Shown here: positions 6,085 through 37,178 of the stretch, piece after piece
How positions within the stretch are numbered: the stretch's first letter is position 1
Layout of the letters: every line of letters begins with the position of its first letter
Assembly (NCBI RefSeq): GCF_900291465.1
Contig: NZ_LT985808.1
Span: 1,105,058-1,162,745 of the forward strand
Source of the DNA: Bacteroides sp. Marseille-P3684
Lineage (GTDB): Bacteria > Bacteroidota > Bacteroidia > Bacteroidales > Bacteroidaceae
Direction of reading: 5' to 3'
Length of the DNA: 57,688 nucleotides
The notes under the pieces: generated by a model
What the model was told of the DNA's origin: nothing
Databases searched by the model: none
Seen by the model: only the letters and a program-made list of their open reading frames with translations
Position numbers and translations under genes: made by a program

Positions 6085-6321
6085 CAAACACTGTTGTCCC
6101 ACGGATGGAACACGTGAGTTTGACTCACACAACACAAGAGTTTGACCTGACAAACTAATTAGTTTGACATACCTAAGTATTATACTTAGACCACCAAAGT
6201 ATCATACTTAGGCTGCCTAAGTATAATACTTTGGTCCATCAAACTACTATGTTTGTCAGGTCAAACTCTTGTGTTTGTCCGGTCGAAGACTTGTGTTTGA
6301 CCGAACAAACACAAATGATAC
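6085..6321. repeat. Array of about ten 16-17-bp palindromes with 22-bp period
   Basis: Near-palindromic units start at 6108, 6130, 6151, 6173, 6195, 6217, 6240, 6262, 6284 and 6306 (partial), spaced 21-23 bp with 5-7-bp spacers; a weaker unit may start at 6085. Examples are CAAACTAATTAGTTTG (6151-6166, perfect), CTAAGTATTATACTTAG (6173-6189) and CAAACTCTTGTGTTTG (6262-6277). The outer units have CAAA/TTTG edges and the three middle ones mostly CTAAGTAT arms. The array is also symmetric about position 6203: unit 6130 plus spacer acctga mirrors spacer tcaggt plus unit 6262. It lies between two 3' gene ends, so a role in termination or RNA end protection is more likely than a promoter role. Confidence 0.85.
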
Positions 6322-6344: not shown

Positions 6345-9300
6345 ACTTCTTCTTCATAAACTCACTCGGACTCATGCCATACTTCTCCTTGAACCGTTGG
6401 CGGAAGTAGGGGACACTGCTGAAGCCTGTCATGTCGGACACCTCGGTCACGGTGTATTCGCCGGACTCCAGGAGGGTAGCGGCATGCCTCATCTTGGCAT
6501 CGCGCACCAGCTCGTTGACGGAGATGTTCATCAGTGCCTTCACCTTGCGATAGAGGGTGGAGTGGCTCATGCACATCTTGTCGGCAATGAACGCGATGTC
6601 CATGCGTTCCAGGCTCATGTTCTCCTCGATGACCCGGTTCACCTTTTCCAGGAAGTTGCGGTCGAGCTTGCTGAGTTTCCGCAGGGCATCCGTCTCTTCC
6701 TGTCCGGGTTCTTCCGTCTGTTGGCTGCCGATGAGGCGTGCCAGTCGGCGTCGGTTGTCGAGCAGGTTGTCAATGCGGCTGATGAGCAGTCCGGCGCTGA
6801 ACGGCTTGCTCAGGTACGAGTCTGCCCCGGCGGCATAGCCTTCCTCCTTGTCGCGGGTACTGTCCTTTGCCGTGAGCAGGATGACGGGGATGTGGCTCGT
6901 CTGTACGTCCTCCTTCACGAGACGGCAGAGCGTCACGCCATCCATGACCGGCATCATGATGTCGCTCACGATGAGGTCGGGGATTTGCTGTTGCGCCGCG
7001 TCGAGTCCCTCTTGTCCGTCGGCTGCCGTCACGACGTTGTAGCGGTCGGCGAGGGAGCTGCGGATGTATTCACGGATGTCCGCGTTGTCTTCCACCACGA
7101 GCACGATGGGGCGGTTGTCGTCCGTCGTTTCCGGCTGTTCACCGGAAGCAGCTTCCGGGAGTACGGCGTCCGTCCGTGACTCCTTGTGCAGTGCGTCGGG
7201 ATAGAAGTTGTCGGTGAGCAGGCTGACGGTGAAGGTGCTGCCTTCTCCCGGTGTGCTCTTCGCGTCGATGGTGCCCTGATGGAGGCTGACGAGCGACTTC
7301 ACCAGCGCCAGTCCGATTCCCGTCCCCGAGGCGCGATGGGGACTGTCCTCCTGGTAGTAGCGTTCGAAGATGTGCGGCAGTGCTTCCGCGCTGATGCCGT
7401 GTCCCGTGTCGCTGATGCGGATGACGGTGTGGCGTGTGCCGTCCGTCGTCTCAGTGGCGATGCTCAGGCTGATGCTCCCCTGCGGTGTGTACTTGATGGC
7501 GTTGGAGAGGAGGTTGTCGAGGATGATGGTCATCACGTCGGGGTCGAAATAGAGGGTGGTGTCCGTCGGAGCGATGGAGAGGCGGAAGTCCACCCGGGCG
7601 TTGGAGTTCAGTTCCTTGTAGCGCAGCCCGATTTCCTGCACCAGCTTGCCCAGGTCGGCACGCTCCACGCAGAGTCGGCGGTTCTCCGTCTCGGTCTTGC
7701 GGAACTCCAGCAGCTGGTTGATGAGGTTGAGCAGGCGGACGGAACTGTCGCGTATGGCGCTGAGCTTATTCGCATGACCGGGCGAGAGCGTCTTGTCCTG
7801 GAGCAGGTCCTCCAGCGGACCGAGGATGAGTGTCAGCGGCGTACGCAGCTCGTGGGTCATGTTGGTGTAGAAGCGGAGGCGTTCATCGTTGAGCTTCCGG
7901 TCGTTCTCGTGCTGGTGACGTTCCAGCTTCAGCCGGTTCTCCAGTTCCAGCCGGTGCTTGTAGAAGCGCAGTGCCAGGTAGAGCAGCAGGCATCCCATTG
8001 CCAGATAGAACAGCTTCGCATATCCTGTGAGCCACAGCGGGGGCAGGATGCGGATGGATACGGATGTCTCGTCGGTGCTCCACGGCTGGTTGCGCAGCCG
8101 TGCCTTGACACGGAAGGTATAGGTCCCCGGAGGCAGGTTGCGGAACATGACGCGGTGGTCGTTCCCGTTCTCGAACCAGGCGGTGTGCAGTCCTTCCATG
8201 AGGTAGGCATACTCCACCTGCCGGCTGCGGGTGTAGTCCATCACGTTGAAGGCGATGTGGAACGTGTTCTCGTCGTGGGCGAGGCGGATGGTCTGTCCGT
8301 CGGCAAGCGGCAGGATGCGCTCCAGGTTCTTCATGTCGCCGGTGCTGCTGAAGCTCCTGACTTCCGTGATGACCACGGGGCTGAGCCGACGTGGACGGTC
8401 GATGTCCGTGGGGGAGAAGCTGCACACACCCCGTTGCGAGCCGAAGCAGAGTTGCCCGTTGCGGTCGGTGCAGACGGCGCCGTCCATGAAGTCACCCTTG
8501 GGCACACCTTCATCGGACGTGTAGTTCTCGAACTGTTGTTCCTTCCGGTTCCAACGGGAGATACCCCCGTTGGTGCTGAGCCAGATTTCCCCGTCACGGT
8601 CTTCGGCGAGGGCACGCACATGCACGTTCACCAGTCCCTGCTTGCCGCTGTACAGCCGGCAGTCTTTCGGACGGGAAGGGTCGGGCAGGCAGGAGATGCC
8701 GTTGCGTGTGGCTATCCAGATACCTCCCTGCCGGTCGACGAGACAGTCGTTGACGGCGTTTGAGCCCAGTCCGTTGGTCTCGTCGAGGGCACAAATGAGC
8801 TTGTATGCGGGGTTGAAGGCGACGATGCCCTTGCCGAAGGTACCGACCCAGAGGTTGCCTTTGCGGTCGCGCAGGATGCGGTTGACCATGCGGTCGGGCA
8901 GCTGGCGGGTGATGTCGTCGCGTCTTTCCAGCCTGCCGTTCCGGCAGATGTAGAGTCCGTTGAGGGTGGCGACCCAGATGGTCCCGTCAGCGTCCTCGTG
9001 GAAGTCGCGTACGTCGAGTGCCGGGTCGGGAGACGCGATGCGGGTGAGGCGTCGGGTCGCCGGGTCACAGGTGAGCACGCCGTCGTTGTAGAGTCCCAGC
9101 CAGAGCAGTCCCTTACGGTCCTTGTAGAGTGCGTTGACGTGGGTGTTGGGGCTGGCAAGTCCCGTCAGTTCCAGGGTGAAGGCTTCCCGTTCGCCGTCGA
9201 AGGCGACGAGCCGGTTCTCACAGCCTGCCCACAGCAGCGAGCGGTTGTCGACGGCGAGGCTCCACACCTGGTTGGCGCCGGATGCGTCGGTGGAGGAGCC

Positions 9301-31761: not shown

Positions 31762-32072
31762 AGGGGTTGCTATCTCTTCATTTTCGCTTTCCGGGGCTGA
31801 AAAAAGGCAGTGCGGGGCTGTAGGCTCTGCCGAAGCGATGGGGCGCGGGTGTCGCCCTTCCCTGTTTCCTGTGGCGGAAGTCAAAAAGATGCCGTTCGGA
31901 CCCGTTTGCTTGACAGATTTGCGTCAGATGCCCTTTCCGGCTAACTCGTATTTTGCGCATTTCCGTCAAATCAGCAAGCAAGTGTGAAGACGTGTGAATG
32001 AAAACGTCCGAAAATGCCTCTGAATTTAGAAAACTATACGTTTGATTTTCGAAATCCTTACATTTTAACGCT

Positions 32073-32154
32073 CAAACAATGTTGTTTCACGCATCAAACA
32101 CTTGTGTTTGGCAAGTCAAACAATATTGTTTCACCTCCCAAACAATATTGTTTC
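32073..32154. repeat. Array of four 16-bp palindromes with exact 22-bp period
   Basis: Units CAAACAATGTTGTTTC (32073), CAAACACTTGTGTTTG (32095), CAAACAATATTGTTTC (32117) and CAAACAATATTGTTTC (32139) each have 16 bp followed by a 6-bp spacer. The build is the same as that of the array at 6085-6321. Both arrays share the unit edges CAAAC and GTTT, and the centre CTTGTG recurs (32101, 6268). Confidence 0.88.
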
Positions 32155-32176
32155 ATCCGCGGAAGTCAAATCTTTG

Positions 32177-32663: not shown

Positions 32664-32695
32664 GTTGCTTGGTGTGAAGCGGTTGTTTACTTTTG
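32664..32695 (+). promoter_or_regulatory. Promoter driving the split AraC gene (and, if flipped, the S-layer-like gene)
   Basis: GTTG (32664-32667) and TACTTTTG (32688-32695) are separated by 20 bp, a good match to the Bacteroidetes -33/-7 pair. The start codon at 32731 is 36 nt downstream. The promoter is outside the invertible segment and points into it. Confidence 0.65.
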
Positions 32696-32730: not shown

Positions 32731-32922
32731 ATGGATGCTATAGTACAAGGTAGAGAAGGAAAAAGTTTTCCTTTTACTCCTACCAAGCTGTCAGGAAACC
32801 CACGGACGGAGCTTTATCAGAAGGTCCTTAAGTATCTGGATGTCCACAAGGTATATCTGGATCGCGAACTTTCGTTGTCGAAGTTCAGTTCAATAGTGGG
32901 CACGTCTATGAACCTTGTTTAG
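32731..32922 (+). CDS. AraC-type regulator, N-terminal half (split by invertible segment)
   Basis: 63 codons. Residues 1-58 read as the start of a short AraC-type regulator: a basic N-terminus, then YLDVHKVYLDRELSLSKFSSIVGT, which is the first helix of an AraC helix-turn-helix. The last five codons (SMNLV) come from sequence beyond the 17-bp repeat (32888-32904) and then a stop. The natural continuation, NTTYLSNTVNEMFGC and onward, is found in the same frame after the other repeat copy on the opposite strand (37176 downward). As it stands the product lacks the recognition helix and should not bind DNA. It has a good promoter. Confidence 0.8.
   Translation: MDAIVQGREGKSFPFTPTKLSGNPRTELYQKVLKYLDVHKVYLDRELSLSKFSSIVGTSMNLV
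32888..32904 (+). repeat. Left 17-bp inverted repeat of invertible segment
   Basis: GTTCAATAGTGGGCACG is the exact reverse complement of 37162-37178. The bases flanking the two copies differ on both sides, so the identity is sharply bounded, as expected for a recombination site. It encodes SSIVGT in the AraC frame. Confidence 0.9.
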
Positions 32923-33238
32923 TCACCTGTTTCCGCACATTTGAATAGAATTTACATACGTCAATGGCTGCACTGCTGATGTTTAGCGTGCAGCCATTGA
33001 CATATAAGGCATTTACCTCCGTCGCTTCATCCCATTTCCCCGGTCCGGATTTTTGTGCAATTTTATGTTTTAGGACAGCTATTTCGTCGTAAAAGCAGTT
33101 CATTCTTCTTCAAAGTTGGTCACCGGCTGGTCACCGGGTTTGTGGCTGGAGGACAAGAAGGATAAAAAGAAGGGCACATTCTCGTTTGTGAGATGTGCCC
33201 TCCAACAGATTGCCTAATTACTTAGAATTTAAAGTGAA
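32923..33238. other. Gene-less stretch inside the invertible segment
   Basis: About 315 bp holding the terminator of the large gene (33161-33200). A 65-codon - strand frame (32906-33103) ends at a TAG 2 bp inside the left repeat; it resembles nothing I know and has no promoter. Confidence 0.5.
33161..33200 (-). terminator. Intrinsic terminator of the S-layer-like gene
   Basis: GGGCACAT/ATGTGCCC stem (33172-33200, extended by CTC/GAG) followed on the - strand by TTCTTTTTATC. It lies 38 nt after the stop and moves with the gene on inversion. Confidence 0.8.
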
Positions 33239-36200
33239 TTAGTTTGCTTGAGTTCTACCTACTGTACCGTTTACCCAAACAACAAACTCTTCTTGGCTCC
33301 ATTTGTGTTTGATCTTTACCGGTATCTTGATATCGAAGTTCACCACAGTTGCAGTGTTGTTGGTGTACGTCAACTTGTCGAAGTGTTTCTCAGCAATATC
33401 TCTCATGGTAGAGCCTATAGCGGGAACACCAGCAGCAGTATTAACAACATAACCATCGTCTACTCGCGCATAGTCTCCAAGTGTATCATTCCAACGATAA
33501 ACTTTGAATTCTACGTCGTTAGTAACTTCTTTCAAGGGTCTCCATTGACCATCGGCACTGTTCATATTAGTCAAGATCTCTTGCGGATCAACTGAAATGT
33601 CAGATACCTCATAGTAATGATAGTAATCCAAGTAGTCAGCGAAGTGACGGACTCTGAAATCATAGAAGTCAATCAGGTCAGCCAGGTATACCTCAGTCTC
33701 AGGTTCACCGCCATCGTATGCATCTACGAAGTGAACTTCGTCTTTAGGTTGTGCATAAACAGGCTTCAAGAACTCTACATCAAATGTATTATCAGCGGTA
33801 GGTAAGAAGGCACCACACTCTCTGTTAAATGCAGCTACACCAATATTGACATCCAATGTATTCTTCAACAGAGTTTCAGCTTTGCTAAGATCGCCATCCC
33901 AAGATTCAGGAACGTTCAAGAGATCTTTGGCTACAGCGTTGTTCATCAGCTCCAACCATACACCGTGATCTCTTACATGAGAATTGTGAGGATTATAGTT
34001 CAGCTTAGCAATAGGAGTACCATTGGCAGTCAGAATTTGGTTCTTGAATTCGTAAGGTTCTGCATCCGTAAACAACATTACATCGTTATTGGCAGTTGTG
34101 TTGGCAACGCCCAAAGTGTAAGATGTATTGCTTACGCCTTTGACTGTTCTGTTGTTGTTGGCAAGTGAGAAGTAGTAGTAATAAACCAGACTGTCATTCT
34201 GGAAAGAAGTAAAGTTGCTTTCCTTGTTCCAGTCGTAAACTACATTCCATGTATCTTCCGGTTGGATGATAAACTTCGGTGCATTTTCATTGACTGCAAA
34301 GCATACATCACCGGGACCGTTAGAGATATTCCAGCTACTGCCCATAGTACCGTTGCCAGAGTGTCCGATTGTGTTCTTTTCGAAACGGCTGTCCAAAGCT
34401 ACATAGAAGTCACAGCTGGCTGCTTTCATGTCAGTGATTGTAGCAGGTACATCTACATTGGCGTGGATAGCACGCATGTTCTTATAGTCACCGGCAGAAG
34501 TTTCTGACATGCTATTGTCTGCATACCAGTAAGTTGAGAGTTTATTTCTCAAGACAGCCTTCGGATACTTCAATGTGATTTCGATCGGTAAATAGATAGG
34601 CTTCTTGGCCGTACCCGTGTTACCCAGACCCTTGTTAGGTTCATACTTCACATATCTTGTGATAGTAACAACAGGATAACCTTCATTTTTAGCCAATGCC
34701 ACAAAGTCTGCACGGTCGATAGTCCATGAGAGAACATCAGTTGTTTCAGCACCGTAGTTGGCAATTTCGTGGATTGTACCAATAGCAGGAACTTGCGTAT
34801 AGGTCGGATAGCCATACATATCTTCGCCGCCAGGAACAAATTGTATTACTTCATGGTTTTCATCAGCAACGATGTGGTAGTTCGCATCAAAGGTCTCTTT
34901 TGAAGATTCAGCAGTAGCTTCCAGCAACTTGGTTTCGATAGCATGCCATGTAATCTTCTTGGTTTGGTCTCCACAACGATAGAAGAAGTCGCCCAAGTTG
35001 AATTTCTCAGCAGCAACTGGTGTTTCAGGAGCGATAATTTTGAACTTGATGAAGCCGGCTTCTACAACCTCTCCATTTTCTGTATTCTTGATAGAAACAC
35101 GAATCAACGGAGTACGTCCTACAGAAGCAATCGCTTTTCCAATCTTGGTTGAGTCAATCTTGCAGTCGAGCAGGTCAGTATCACTGTTGCTATCTACACC
35201 GCATGCAGCGATAGATGTGTAAGCTTCACCGGCTTCATTGGTCTTTGTTACCAATACACAGTGGTTCTGTGACTGTTCGGTCGCGTTAGAACCAATAGTG
35301 AAAGGAACTTTTTCGAACGCAAATTCCATGCCATGAGCTTTCAGAGAATCTTCATTCCAAGTATAGATGCTTTTTGCGGCATTCCATGAACGTCTTGAGT
35401 TTGCTGTTACGTGTATACGAACCAATTCATTCAAATTGATACCGTTGGCATCACTGTAAGCTAATTCAACTGTTGCAGATTGCTCGGCTGCGTCTTTAGC
35501 TTTATCATATAAGTGGGCGCCACCACCAATGGGATTGGAGTGGGTACTTGCCGAACCTACCGGATGATCAGTATCAAACTCCTTTTCTGTAATGATGTGA
35601 TTGCTGGAAGTGTTGTAAGCCAAAGCTTCGATAGCAATCTGTGAAGCATATACAGAAGAATAAGTGGAGGTGATAACTTCAGTTCTTTGTTCATCCAAAG
35701 GAACTTGGATGGCGAGGTCTGTAATCTTGGAGTCATCCTTCCGTGCAGGATAGAAATAGGACTCGTTAGTACGGTCTTCTTCTTGTGTCTTTACTAACTG
35801 ACCTTCCATCTTGATGCCGACTTGCATCTTTCCGTCTCTTACATCTTTGAACCAAACAGCCATCGGATTGGATGCGGCAGCTCTGGTTTGGATAAAGTCA
35901 CGGTCATCAGAAGTTACACCTAAGTTCTCCTGTGAAAATTCGCTGATGATAGCAGTAGTCGGGTTCATGTGATACTCCTTGCAGTAAGTCGGATTCACAA
36001 ATCCCCAATTCTCGCTTACGACAGCTTCATCTTTAATGGTGTAAGGTTGAGCCAGTTCTGCATAGCCTTCACCGGTGACAACTTGATGTACAGTCATCAT
36101 ACCGGTCTTTTCAGAACCATCAAACGTTACAGGATGATAAGGAATATATGCATATTCCATTGCATTTTGTCCATCCAGAACCAATTCAGGCTGGAATACC

Positions 36201-36856
36201 AATGCTTTCAAATCACCTCTTAACGAGATAACCAAATCGCCTTCATAGCCTTCTACGTTGCGCAATGTCAGGACATCGTTATCCCAAATAGCAATTACGC
36301 CTTCAGTCTTGATAGAGGCAGTCCATTGGATGTTGGTGTTTTCTTTTGTTTCTGAACCGTCAGCTGCAACATTGACTTTGATCCAATATCCGTTTTCATC
36401 CCCTTCTGTTCCAGGATAGTAATAAACAGAAGAGGTTGATTGCCCGGGAGTACCTGGTTCTCCAGGTTCACCTTGTTCACCCTTTTCTCCGGGATCACCT
36501 TTATCTCCCTTTTCGCCGCGCGAAGGCTTTTGAGTGTCTACGCCATCAATAAACCAATTACCATTTGGTCCGATTTCAACGACGCTGCCGTCTTCGCCGT
36601 CAACGCCATTGGTCAGTTCAAAGGTATTGCCGTTGCTCAATGTGAGACGAACTCCATTGGAAGTGGCGGTCACATCGGTCAGGATGGCACCTTTTTGAAT
36701 TTGTGACTGAAGTTCAGACGCGAGACTCTCAACGGCTTCGAGACCTGCGCGAAGCTCGTCAATGTCGTCATCGTAGTCTTTACATGACGTCACCACTCCT
36801 GCTGAGAGCAAGGCTGCACTGAACAGGAGCGTACTCATTAACTTTTTGTTCATCAT
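33239..36856 (-). CDS. Large S-layer-like lipoprotein with DUF4988 (PL29 N-terminal) domain and collagen-like tract
   Basis: 1205 aa. Lipoprotein signal ending VVTSC (Cys about 25), followed by KDYDDDIDELRAGLEAVESL, a helical coiled start typical of DUF4988 proteins. A Gly-X-Y tract (about 113-137: GEKGDKGDPGEKGEQGEPG) is flanked by a DGEDGSVVEIGPNGNWFIDG repeat-like segment. The rest is a long beta-rich, Thr/Asn-rich body. The family includes proteins that form the phase-variable surface layer of B. thetaiotaomicron. No enzyme motif was found, so a structural surface role is more likely than lyase activity. The gene is more AT-rich than its neighbours. No promoter is visible in this orientation; see the invertible segment. 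Confidence 0.82.
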   Translation of the reverse strand: MMNKKLMSTLLFSAALLSAGVVTSCKDYDDDIDELRAGLEAVESLASELQSQIQKGAILTDVTATSNGVRLTLSNGNTFELTNGVDGEDGSVVEIGPNGNWFIDGVDTQKPSRGEKGDKGDPGEKGEQGEPGEPGTPGQSTSSVYYYPGTEGDENGYWIKVNVAADGSETKENTNIQWTASIKTEGVIAIWDNDVLTLRNVEGYEGDLVISLRGDLKALVFQPELVLDGQNAMEYAYIPYHPVTFDGSEKTGMMTVHQVVTGEGYAELAQPYTIKDEAVVSENWGFVNPTYCKEYHMNPTTAIISEFSQENLGVTSDDRDFIQTRAAASNPMAVWFKDVRDGKMQVGIKMEGQLVKTQEEDRTNESYFYPARKDDSKITDLAIQVPLDEQRTEVITSTYSSVYASQIAIEALAYNTSSNHIITEKEFDTDHPVGSASTHSNPIGGGAHLYDKAKDAAEQSATVELAYSDANGINLNELVRIHVTANSRRSWNAAKSIYTWNEDSLKAHGMEFAFEKVPFTIGSNATEQSQNHCVLVTKTNEAGEAYTSIAACGVDSNSDTDLLDCKIDSTKIGKAIASVGRTPLIRVSIKNTENGEVVEAGFIKFKIIAPETPVAAEKFNLGDFFYRCGDQTKKITWHAIETKLLEATAESSKETFDANYHIVADENHEVIQFVPGGEDMYGYPTYTQVPAIGTIHEIANYGAETTDVLSWTIDRADFVALAKNEGYPVVTITRYVKYEPNKGLGNTGTAKKPIYLPIEITLKYPKAVLRNKLSTYWYADNSMSETSAGDYKNMRAIHANVDVPATITDMKAASCDFYVALDSRFEKNTIGHSGNGTMGSSWNISNGPGDVCFAVNENAPKFIIQPEDTWNVVYDWNKESNFTSFQNDSLVYYYYFSLANNNRTVKGVSNTSYTLGVANTTANNDVMLFTDAEPYEFKNQILTANGTPIAKLNYNPHNSHVRDHGVWLELMNNAVAKDLLNVPESWDGDLSKAETLLKNTLDVNIGVAAFNRECGAFLPTADNTFDVEFLKPVYAQPKDEVHFVDAYDGGEPETEVYLADLIDFYDFRVRHFADYLDYYHYYEVSDISVDPQEILTNMNSADGQWRPLKEVTNDVEFKVYRWNDTLGDYARVDDGYVVNTAAGVPAIGSTMRDIAEKHFDKLTYTNNTATVVNFDIKIPVKIKHKWSQEEFVVWVNGTVGRTQAN

Positions 36857-36915
36857 ACTAAAACTTTAAATTTAAAGATTAATAATAACTTTAATTGTTT
36901 TATTCTCTTTTCTTT

Positions 36916-37176
36916 CTATTGTTCTTCACAACCCTTCCGACAGATGTTCATGAAGCGGTTGGGGGTGATGCCCTCACAGCGTTTAAAGGAAGCGTAGAAG
37001 GTGCTCTTGGAGGCGAACCCGCACACGAAGGGGATGTCTTTCAGCCGACAGATGCCGCGACGCAACACCTCTTTGGCGTATTGCACACGGTACCAGTTGA
37101 TTAACGACTTCAAATTGCAGCCAAACATCTCGTTCACGGTGTTCGACAGATAGGTAGTATTCGTGCCCACTATTGA
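36916..37176 (-). CDS. AraC-type regulator, C-terminal half (split by invertible segment)
   Basis: 86 codons from the repeat to the stop: SIVGTNTTYLSNTVNEMFGC, then INWYRVQYAKEVLRRG, IPFVCGFASKSTFYASFKR and GITPNRF, i.e. most of an AraC DNA-binding domain with the second helix-turn-helix and the conserved GF-S-STFY--FK and G-TP--F signatures. The frame upstream (up to 37329) is low-complexity Leu/Pro-rich and not AraC-like, so this half has no proper start here. Joined to 32731-32904 it gives a 139-aa regulator with no frame change. It sits 59 nt upstream of the large lipoprotein gene on the same strand. Confidence 0.82.
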   Translation of the reverse strand, partial: SIVGTNTTYLSNTVNEMFGCNLKSLINWYRVQYAKEVLRRGICRLKDIPFVCGFASKSTFYASFKRCEGITPNRFMNICRKGCEEQ

Positions 37177-37178
37177 AC
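37162..37178 (-). repeat. Right 17-bp inverted repeat of invertible segment
   Basis: CGTGCCCACTATTGAAC on the + strand, the exact reverse complement of 32888-32904. On the - strand it encodes SIVGT in the AraC frame. Confidence 0.9.

Follow-up and report, generated by a model that had tools for sequence, protein, structure and literature searches.

The DNA analyzed here is a 57,688-nt stretch of the genome of Bacteroides sp. Marseille-P3684 (the window), and the locus of interest is a gene for an AraC-family regulator that is present in two pieces on opposite strands, with a large surface-protein gene lying between them. The N-terminal half (N-half) and the C-terminal half (C-half) of the regulator each meet one arm of a perfect 17-bp inverted repeat, the flanks of which diverge immediately on both sides (Table 1). 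In the present orientation, the N-half is read as a truncated frame. Flipping the segment by script produced a single regulator frame of 139 amino acids (aa), and the start of the surface gene then lay 59 nt past the regulator stop. The residues S-I-V-G-T were encoded identically and in frame at both copies of the repeat. An earlier reading of this DNA made without database searches (the sequence-only reading) had proposed the repeat with its differing flanks, the two AraC halves sharing SIVGT in one frame, the 139-aa product, and the 59-nt spacing to the 1205-aa gene, and all of these were reproduced. The joined protein matched HTH_18 (PF12833, E = 5e-15) and HTH_AraC (PF00165, E = 6e-6), both above the cut-off; PF12833, the AraC-type double helix-turn-helix (HTH) domain, was also above the cut-off on the natural protein L111. 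A natural joined relative, L069, matched solved AraC-type domains, the two best of which aligned ungapped through the S-I-V-G-T junction, which we take to be the turn preceding the recognition helix of the first HTH. The length of the repeat was rejected as evidence, since inverted repeats of at least 17 bp were present in 3 of 40 first-order Markov windows of 57.7 kb; the window itself also holds one more repeat of 17 bp, one of 18 bp, and one of 25 bp. Because length is uninformative, the significance of the site rests on the reading frame, the rebuilt domain, and recurrence elsewhere. We propose that the locus acts as a switch by site-specific DNA inversion, the crossover falling within the AraC-family regulator gene, and we assign this reading a probability of about 0.85.

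The genome (3.7 Mb, three contigs) contained three split regulator loci, of which the window locus is locus 1, and all three were broken at the same codons. Each enclosed one large surface-protein gene. The encoded surface proteins had a lipoprotein-like start (SCKDYDDDID) and were 57–77% identical over their first 50–80 residues; beyond this N-terminal region, the sole other alignment among them was 22% identity over 251 aa. The search was extended to 15 genomes of the genus, this one included, and nine of the 14 relatives yielded the locus. Both gene orders were present, across species only. The split order, seen at loci 1–3, was found with both halves visible in four relatives (G001, G011, G012, and G013), while two relatives (G014 and G008) carried the joined order of regulator and then surface gene. 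Three further contigs (G003, G006, and G007-C91) showed only the C-half junction on the recombinase side, and contig G007-C189 terminated within a joined regulator. Only weaker paralogue-type matches or none were found in G002, G004, G005, G009, and G010. In both G014 and G008, an inverted partner site with the same core adjoined the recombinase gene. The sequence-only reading had called for an intact regulator followed by the window's own surface gene in related genomes; the gene order was borne out in G014 and G008, but the surface genes there were diverged relatives and not the same gene. An OmpA-like gene was also seen inside the segment (4475–5572 in L069, 15772–16899 in L070, and 4746–5837 in L073), with PF00691 matched in L069 and the others being its homologues. 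It lay within the segment in G014, and homologues were at like positions in G008 and G013. Among viral contigs, an alignment search gave 71 candidate stretches and no relative, and a degenerate joined-junction pattern had no match.

A tyrosine recombinase gene (PF00589, PF13102, and PF17293) was identified at locus 3, ending 90 nt before the crossover core, and a recombinase homologue was present near 12 of 15 loci, cassette-array loci included. A weak recombinase-like match in L031 (19% identity) was dropped. Nine of the 12 recombinases were aligned, leaving out those of L075, L077, and G292. Eight of these were 47–68% identical to the locus-3 recombinase, and R217, K242, H304xxR307, H330, and Y339 were invariant in all nine; we assume that this set (R, K, HxxR, H, and Y) represents the catalytic residues. 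At the crossover sites, a 7-bp core spanning V-G-T was identical between both sites in all seven columns at nine of nine loci, and matching dropped outside it. This count omits G003, G006, and G007, where one site only was in view. Four core types occurred among the loci (GGGCACG, GGGTACA, GGGTACG, and CGGCACG), with differences always at third codon positions, and loci 1–3 had three different cores (GGGCACG, GGGTACA, and GGGTACG). Core agreement throughout the nine loci was reached in 79 of 200,000 shuffled pairings, and the exact fraction was 0.0024 for the seven split loci alone, at which the protein halves had dictated where the sites lie (kinship uncorrected in both cases). The core was flanked by AATAGT- and AATACT-like arms, probably as expected for tyrosine recombinase sites.

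The sequence-only reading had also placed a promoter near 32664–32695 and had taken the present state to be OFF. A promoter-like match was found at this point, outside the segment. The corresponding pattern, TTG-N18–22-TAnnTT(T/C)G, preceded the N-half in 10 of 10 loci (with N19 in G248 and G292, a last block of TTCG in G011, and assumed start codons for locus 3 and G013), and its TTG began 59–69 nt ahead of the start codon. The same pattern was found in 79 of 5000 random 203-nt pieces of these loci. At the seven split loci, the 600 nt ahead of the surface gene never contained it, and TAnnTTTG alone occurred there at one of the seven. With a promoter before the N-half and none before the split surface gene, the split order is probably OFF and the joined order ON, which supports the OFF state claimed for the window. 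A hairpin of −18 to −32 kcal/mol was predicted within ~330 nt past the N-half site in five of five split loci folded, with no shuffled control; the one in the window is perhaps a terminator, which may also halt N-half transcription in the OFF state.

Table 1. Features of the window locus (locus 1), with window positions, and the two sister loci of the same genome.
Feature	Position	Strand	Remarks
Fixed Bacteroidetes-type promoter, TTG-N20-TACTTTTG	32665..32695	+	Pattern match; outside the putative invertible segment
N-half of AraC-family regulator	32731..32922	+	Open reading frame; ATG at 32731; truncated 63-aa frame at present, stop at 32922
Left crossover site (putative)	32888..32904	+	17-bp arm; 7-bp core GGGCACG at 32898-32904, AATAGT before core
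Invertible segment (putative)	32905..37161	.	4257 nt between arms; holds C-half and surface gene
Predicted hairpin	32956..33005	.	−31.6 kcal/mol, no shuffled control; between left site and surface gene 3' end
Surface-protein gene	33239..36856	-	1205 aa; lipoprotein-like start, DUF4988, collagen-like stretch (collagen below cut-off)
C-half of regulator	36916..37161	-	HTH1 recognition helix through HTH2 (presumed helix naming); stop at 36916
Right crossover site (putative)	37162..37178	-	17-bp arm; core GGGCACG at 37168-37162 of minus strand
Locus 2	C1:1022540 (N-half), 1026491 (C-half)		Surface protein 1100 aa
Locus 3	C1:544911 (N-half), 539600 (C-half)		Surface protein 1244 aa

In the mechanism that we propose, the tyrosine recombinase of locus 3, which in relatives lies near the locus, would recombine two inverted sites carrying the 7-bp core, and it would presumably act in trans at loci 1 and 2. 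The core GGGCACG would encode the V-G-T of the first HTH turn. In the present (OFF) orientation, transcription from the promoter would yield a 63-aa stub, and neither the C-half nor the surface gene would have a recognizable promoter; in the ON orientation, the whole regulator and then the surface protein would be made from one operon. As the crossover falls within the DNA-binding domain of the regulator, one event would determine both whether the regulator exists and where the surface gene is placed. It is possible, if doubtful, that the regulator is not an activator of this surface gene and that the flip mainly makes a regulator acting in trans (for example, restraining other surface loci) with the surface gene carried along. 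That alternative is compatible with inversion, and it gains from the regulator being whole only in the joined state, from the several loci in some genomes, and from the different C-half types of the cassettes described below.

Two genomes of another genus of the same family (G248 and G292, genus g13) contained an array at this locus type. Each had one intact regulator and surface gene, plus silent cassettes of a C-half and a surface gene (three in G248 and one in G292), and a recombinase gene and what we presume to be ruvB at the far end of the array. All four silent C-halves began at CGGCACGAATACG, and the DNA preceding them differed within G248, where two of the three were alike over ~15 nt. 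The N-half was joined to one C-half type in G248 and to another in G292, and the type joined in G292 was silent in G248. In a comparison that dropped DNA matches of ≤250 nt, alignment between the two genomes broke ≤3 nt from the cores (at 7076, 13189, and 22610 in G248, and at 6616 and 23690 in G292). We read these breaks as the clearest evidence of recombination at this point, and in these genomes the same crossover would serve a cassette array, with C-half and surface gene moving together. Tentatively, one recombinase may serve several invertons: private, wobble-coded 7-bp cores would keep the regulator protein unchanged and block exchange between loci, and identical cores, as in G248 and G292, would allow cassettes to be swapped, each surface protein bringing along its own DNA-reading half of the regulator, which would couple the switching of surface identity to that of regulatory specificity.

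The array, with its several cassettes, also favors an account in which C-halves are shuffled between distant N-halves, among loci or cassettes, in place of a local two-state inversion, as would the contigs of G007 (discussed below) if they came from two loci. For the window locus we regard such shuffling as improbable, given that the N-half and C-half of each locus in this genome lie a few kb apart and inverted, and that three different cores should disfavor cross-locus exchange by a tyrosine recombinase.

The ratio of non-synonymous to synonymous change (dN/dS) was used to evaluate whether the halves are maintained. Between the C-halves of loci 1 and 2, 31 of 50 synonymous and 9 of 187 non-synonymous sites were changed (dN/dS 0.038), and at present both C-halves lack a start in the joined frame. 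This value argues that the split regulator is not a pseudogene. It likewise makes a fixed, one-time rearrangement, in which an old inversion broke the regulator and left the halves as remnants, quite unlikely: all three loci of this genome are split, as that account would have it, but the low ratio was found between two headless loci, core, frame, and promoter are kept at each locus, and the same break recurs in several species, while others have the joined form. An assembly artefact at 32888 or 37178 is scarcely credible even though inverted repeats can mislead assembly, as the repeat (17 bp here, and 11 consecutive bp at loci 2 and 3) is below ordinary read length and the same split occurs at three loci of this genome and in the assemblies of relatives. 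An intact AraC-type paralogue of ~160 aa, L078 (C1:1597156-1597479), was also observed, and L078-like matches 33–40% identical to the joined query were present in 14 of the 15 genomes of the genus. The split regulators may have such a paralogue as ancestor or partner.

Several observations weigh against the inversion switch. No recombinase was found near loci 1 and 2, and the repeat arms at loci 2 and 3 share just 11 consecutive bp. The core agreement is partly by construction, because a core search was used to locate the partner sites in G014 and G008, and in the remaining loci the shared V-G-T fixes 4 of the 7 core bases. Constraint on the N-half was merely moderate (dN/dS of 0.30 for loci 1–2 and 0.53 for loci 2–3), and many other C-half pairs were saturated at synonymous sites and little informative. 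G248 and G292 showed further breaks away from the cores, between genes or inside variable surface genes. Each species was represented by one assembly, so that the two states were never observed within one strain, and the OmpA-like gene was turned otherwise in G013 than in G014, so this pair are not simple mirror images; its orientation indicates that further rearrangement happens in this locus type. The metagenome-assembled genome G007 points in both directions. Its contig joining N-half to C-half and its contig joining recombinase to C-half shared exactly their last 141 nt, counted from the first core base, and a G003 contig terminated 140 nt from the start of its core. Such shared ends arise where two sequences merge in an assembly graph with k = 141, and the shared end in G007 would fit coexisting orientations in one sample. 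However, the contig joining N-half to distal sequence, expected of a mixed population, was not seen in G007, and the recombinase flank was not syntenic with the fetched G008 stretches, so two loci sharing a C-half are possible. For the inversion switch, the breakpoints, the conservation, the core agreement, and, across species, both gene orders can be read from the DNA itself; that switching takes place in this strain we infer.

Arrays of 14-bp palindromes (AAACAATATTGTTT and AAACACAAGTGTTT) with a 22-nt period were observed at 32072–32164 of the window and genome-wide, e.g., at C1:544202-544281. A two-copy palindrome pattern had 110 matches in the genome and none with the reversed control. 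The arrays near loci 1 and 3 were considered as switch operators and set aside because of this genome-wide occurrence. At 6131–6275 of the window, a 25-bp perfect inverted repeat with arms 95 nt apart surrounds a chain of further short palindromes of the AAGTATNATACTT kind, and this looks like another palindrome array.

Homologous operons were also found in a second form. Regulator/surface-gene pairs whose regulator has an ETNQ or DTNQ turn in the HTH (n = 25, mostly from few genomes with many copies and so not independent) were without an intragenic site, and 20 of the 25 had an inverted repeat of at least 17 bp in front, mostly ATCTCTTAnTAAGAGAT, with arms 150–172 nt apart. These repeats probably represent an invertible-promoter arrangement. 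The counts for genus g13 cover fetched loci, with L122 and L146 left out (motif not found), and none of the 25 showed a recombinase within the stretch fetched. All six loci from one Phocaeicola massiliensis strain were of the promoter-repeat type as well; these were six fetched plasmid records of the eight Phocaeicola records counted. No promoter repeat >10 bp was found at eight intact VGTNTTY/VGTNTSY frames, nor before the N-half at five split loci. For the intact VGTNTTY regulators at L117, L118, L119, and L123, neither a recombinase within the stretch fetched nor a promoter repeat >10 bp was found, and these are perhaps forms fixed ON. The window surface protein aligned with that of L115, a promoter-type locus, at 24% identity over 1232 aa, nearly its full length, and the G013 surface protein did so at 40% over 1033 aa, which indicates that the surface proteins of both switch types are homologous. 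Of 10 surface proteins scanned, 4 had DUF4988 above the cut-off. Among solved structures, the window surface protein had no matches beyond collagen-like or chance ones, and L111 had none. The surface protein may form an S-layer.

Among the closest described systems are the S-layer loci of B. thetaiotaomicron. The BT1927 S-layer is switched by promoter inversion, with reported protection against phage and complement (PMC12548429), and promoters of S-layer loci in this species flip between inverted repeats CCGTTACCTABVRAGTAAC (PMC12118408). As described there, the BT1927 type resembles the locus studied here in having a phase-variable S-layer-like protein near a site-specific integrase and OmpA-family genes (PMC12118408, PMC12548429). 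At the window locus the promoter does not flip; instead, the regulator gene is interrupted and would move together with the surface gene. Inverted repeats >10 bp around the promoter of the surface operon, as in the BT1927 type, were not found at the five split and eight VGT loci noted above. One published primer for BT1927 quantitative PCR (forward only, ≤1 mismatch) had no match in 61 g13 and 158 g3 genomes. The promoter-repeat loci of g13 and P. massiliensis share with the window locus the same regulator family, homologous surface proteins, and the same gene order, but they have an ETNQ/DTNQ turn in place of VGTNT, no intragenic site, and in most cases a promoter repeat. Promoter flipping is the common explanation for phase variation in Bacteroidales surface proteins, and the split loci would represent a second device on operons of this kind. 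Homologous operons that carry different switch types would allow a natural comparison of switch evolution, and the wobble-coded core suggests how one recombinase could keep several switches apart.

In shufflons and in the inversion of type I restriction hsdS genes, a tyrosine recombinase joins a constant N-terminal part to alternative C-terminal parts. The G248 and G292 arrays, where several cassettes accompany one constant part, resemble these systems; the window locus, with one cassette, does not in this respect. The arrays also differ from shufflons and hsdS in that what is shuffled is a transcription-factor gene, with a complete surface gene attached to each C-part, so that the array form would exchange regulator C-half and surface gene as a unit. 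Intragenic invertons, or gene-altering inversions with a breakpoint inside a coding sequence, were reportedly described by Chanin in 2024 and Milman in 2023, and the window inversion would share this property. Split regulators of this kind are likely to have been annotated as pseudogenes and overlooked in searches for promoter invertons. No AraC-splitting surface-protein switch was found in the literature searched, a scope without the main inverton papers. Taken as a whole, the loci appear to constitute a conserved inversion switch that recombines within the gene of a transcription factor, which would be a new form of phase-variable surface-protein control.

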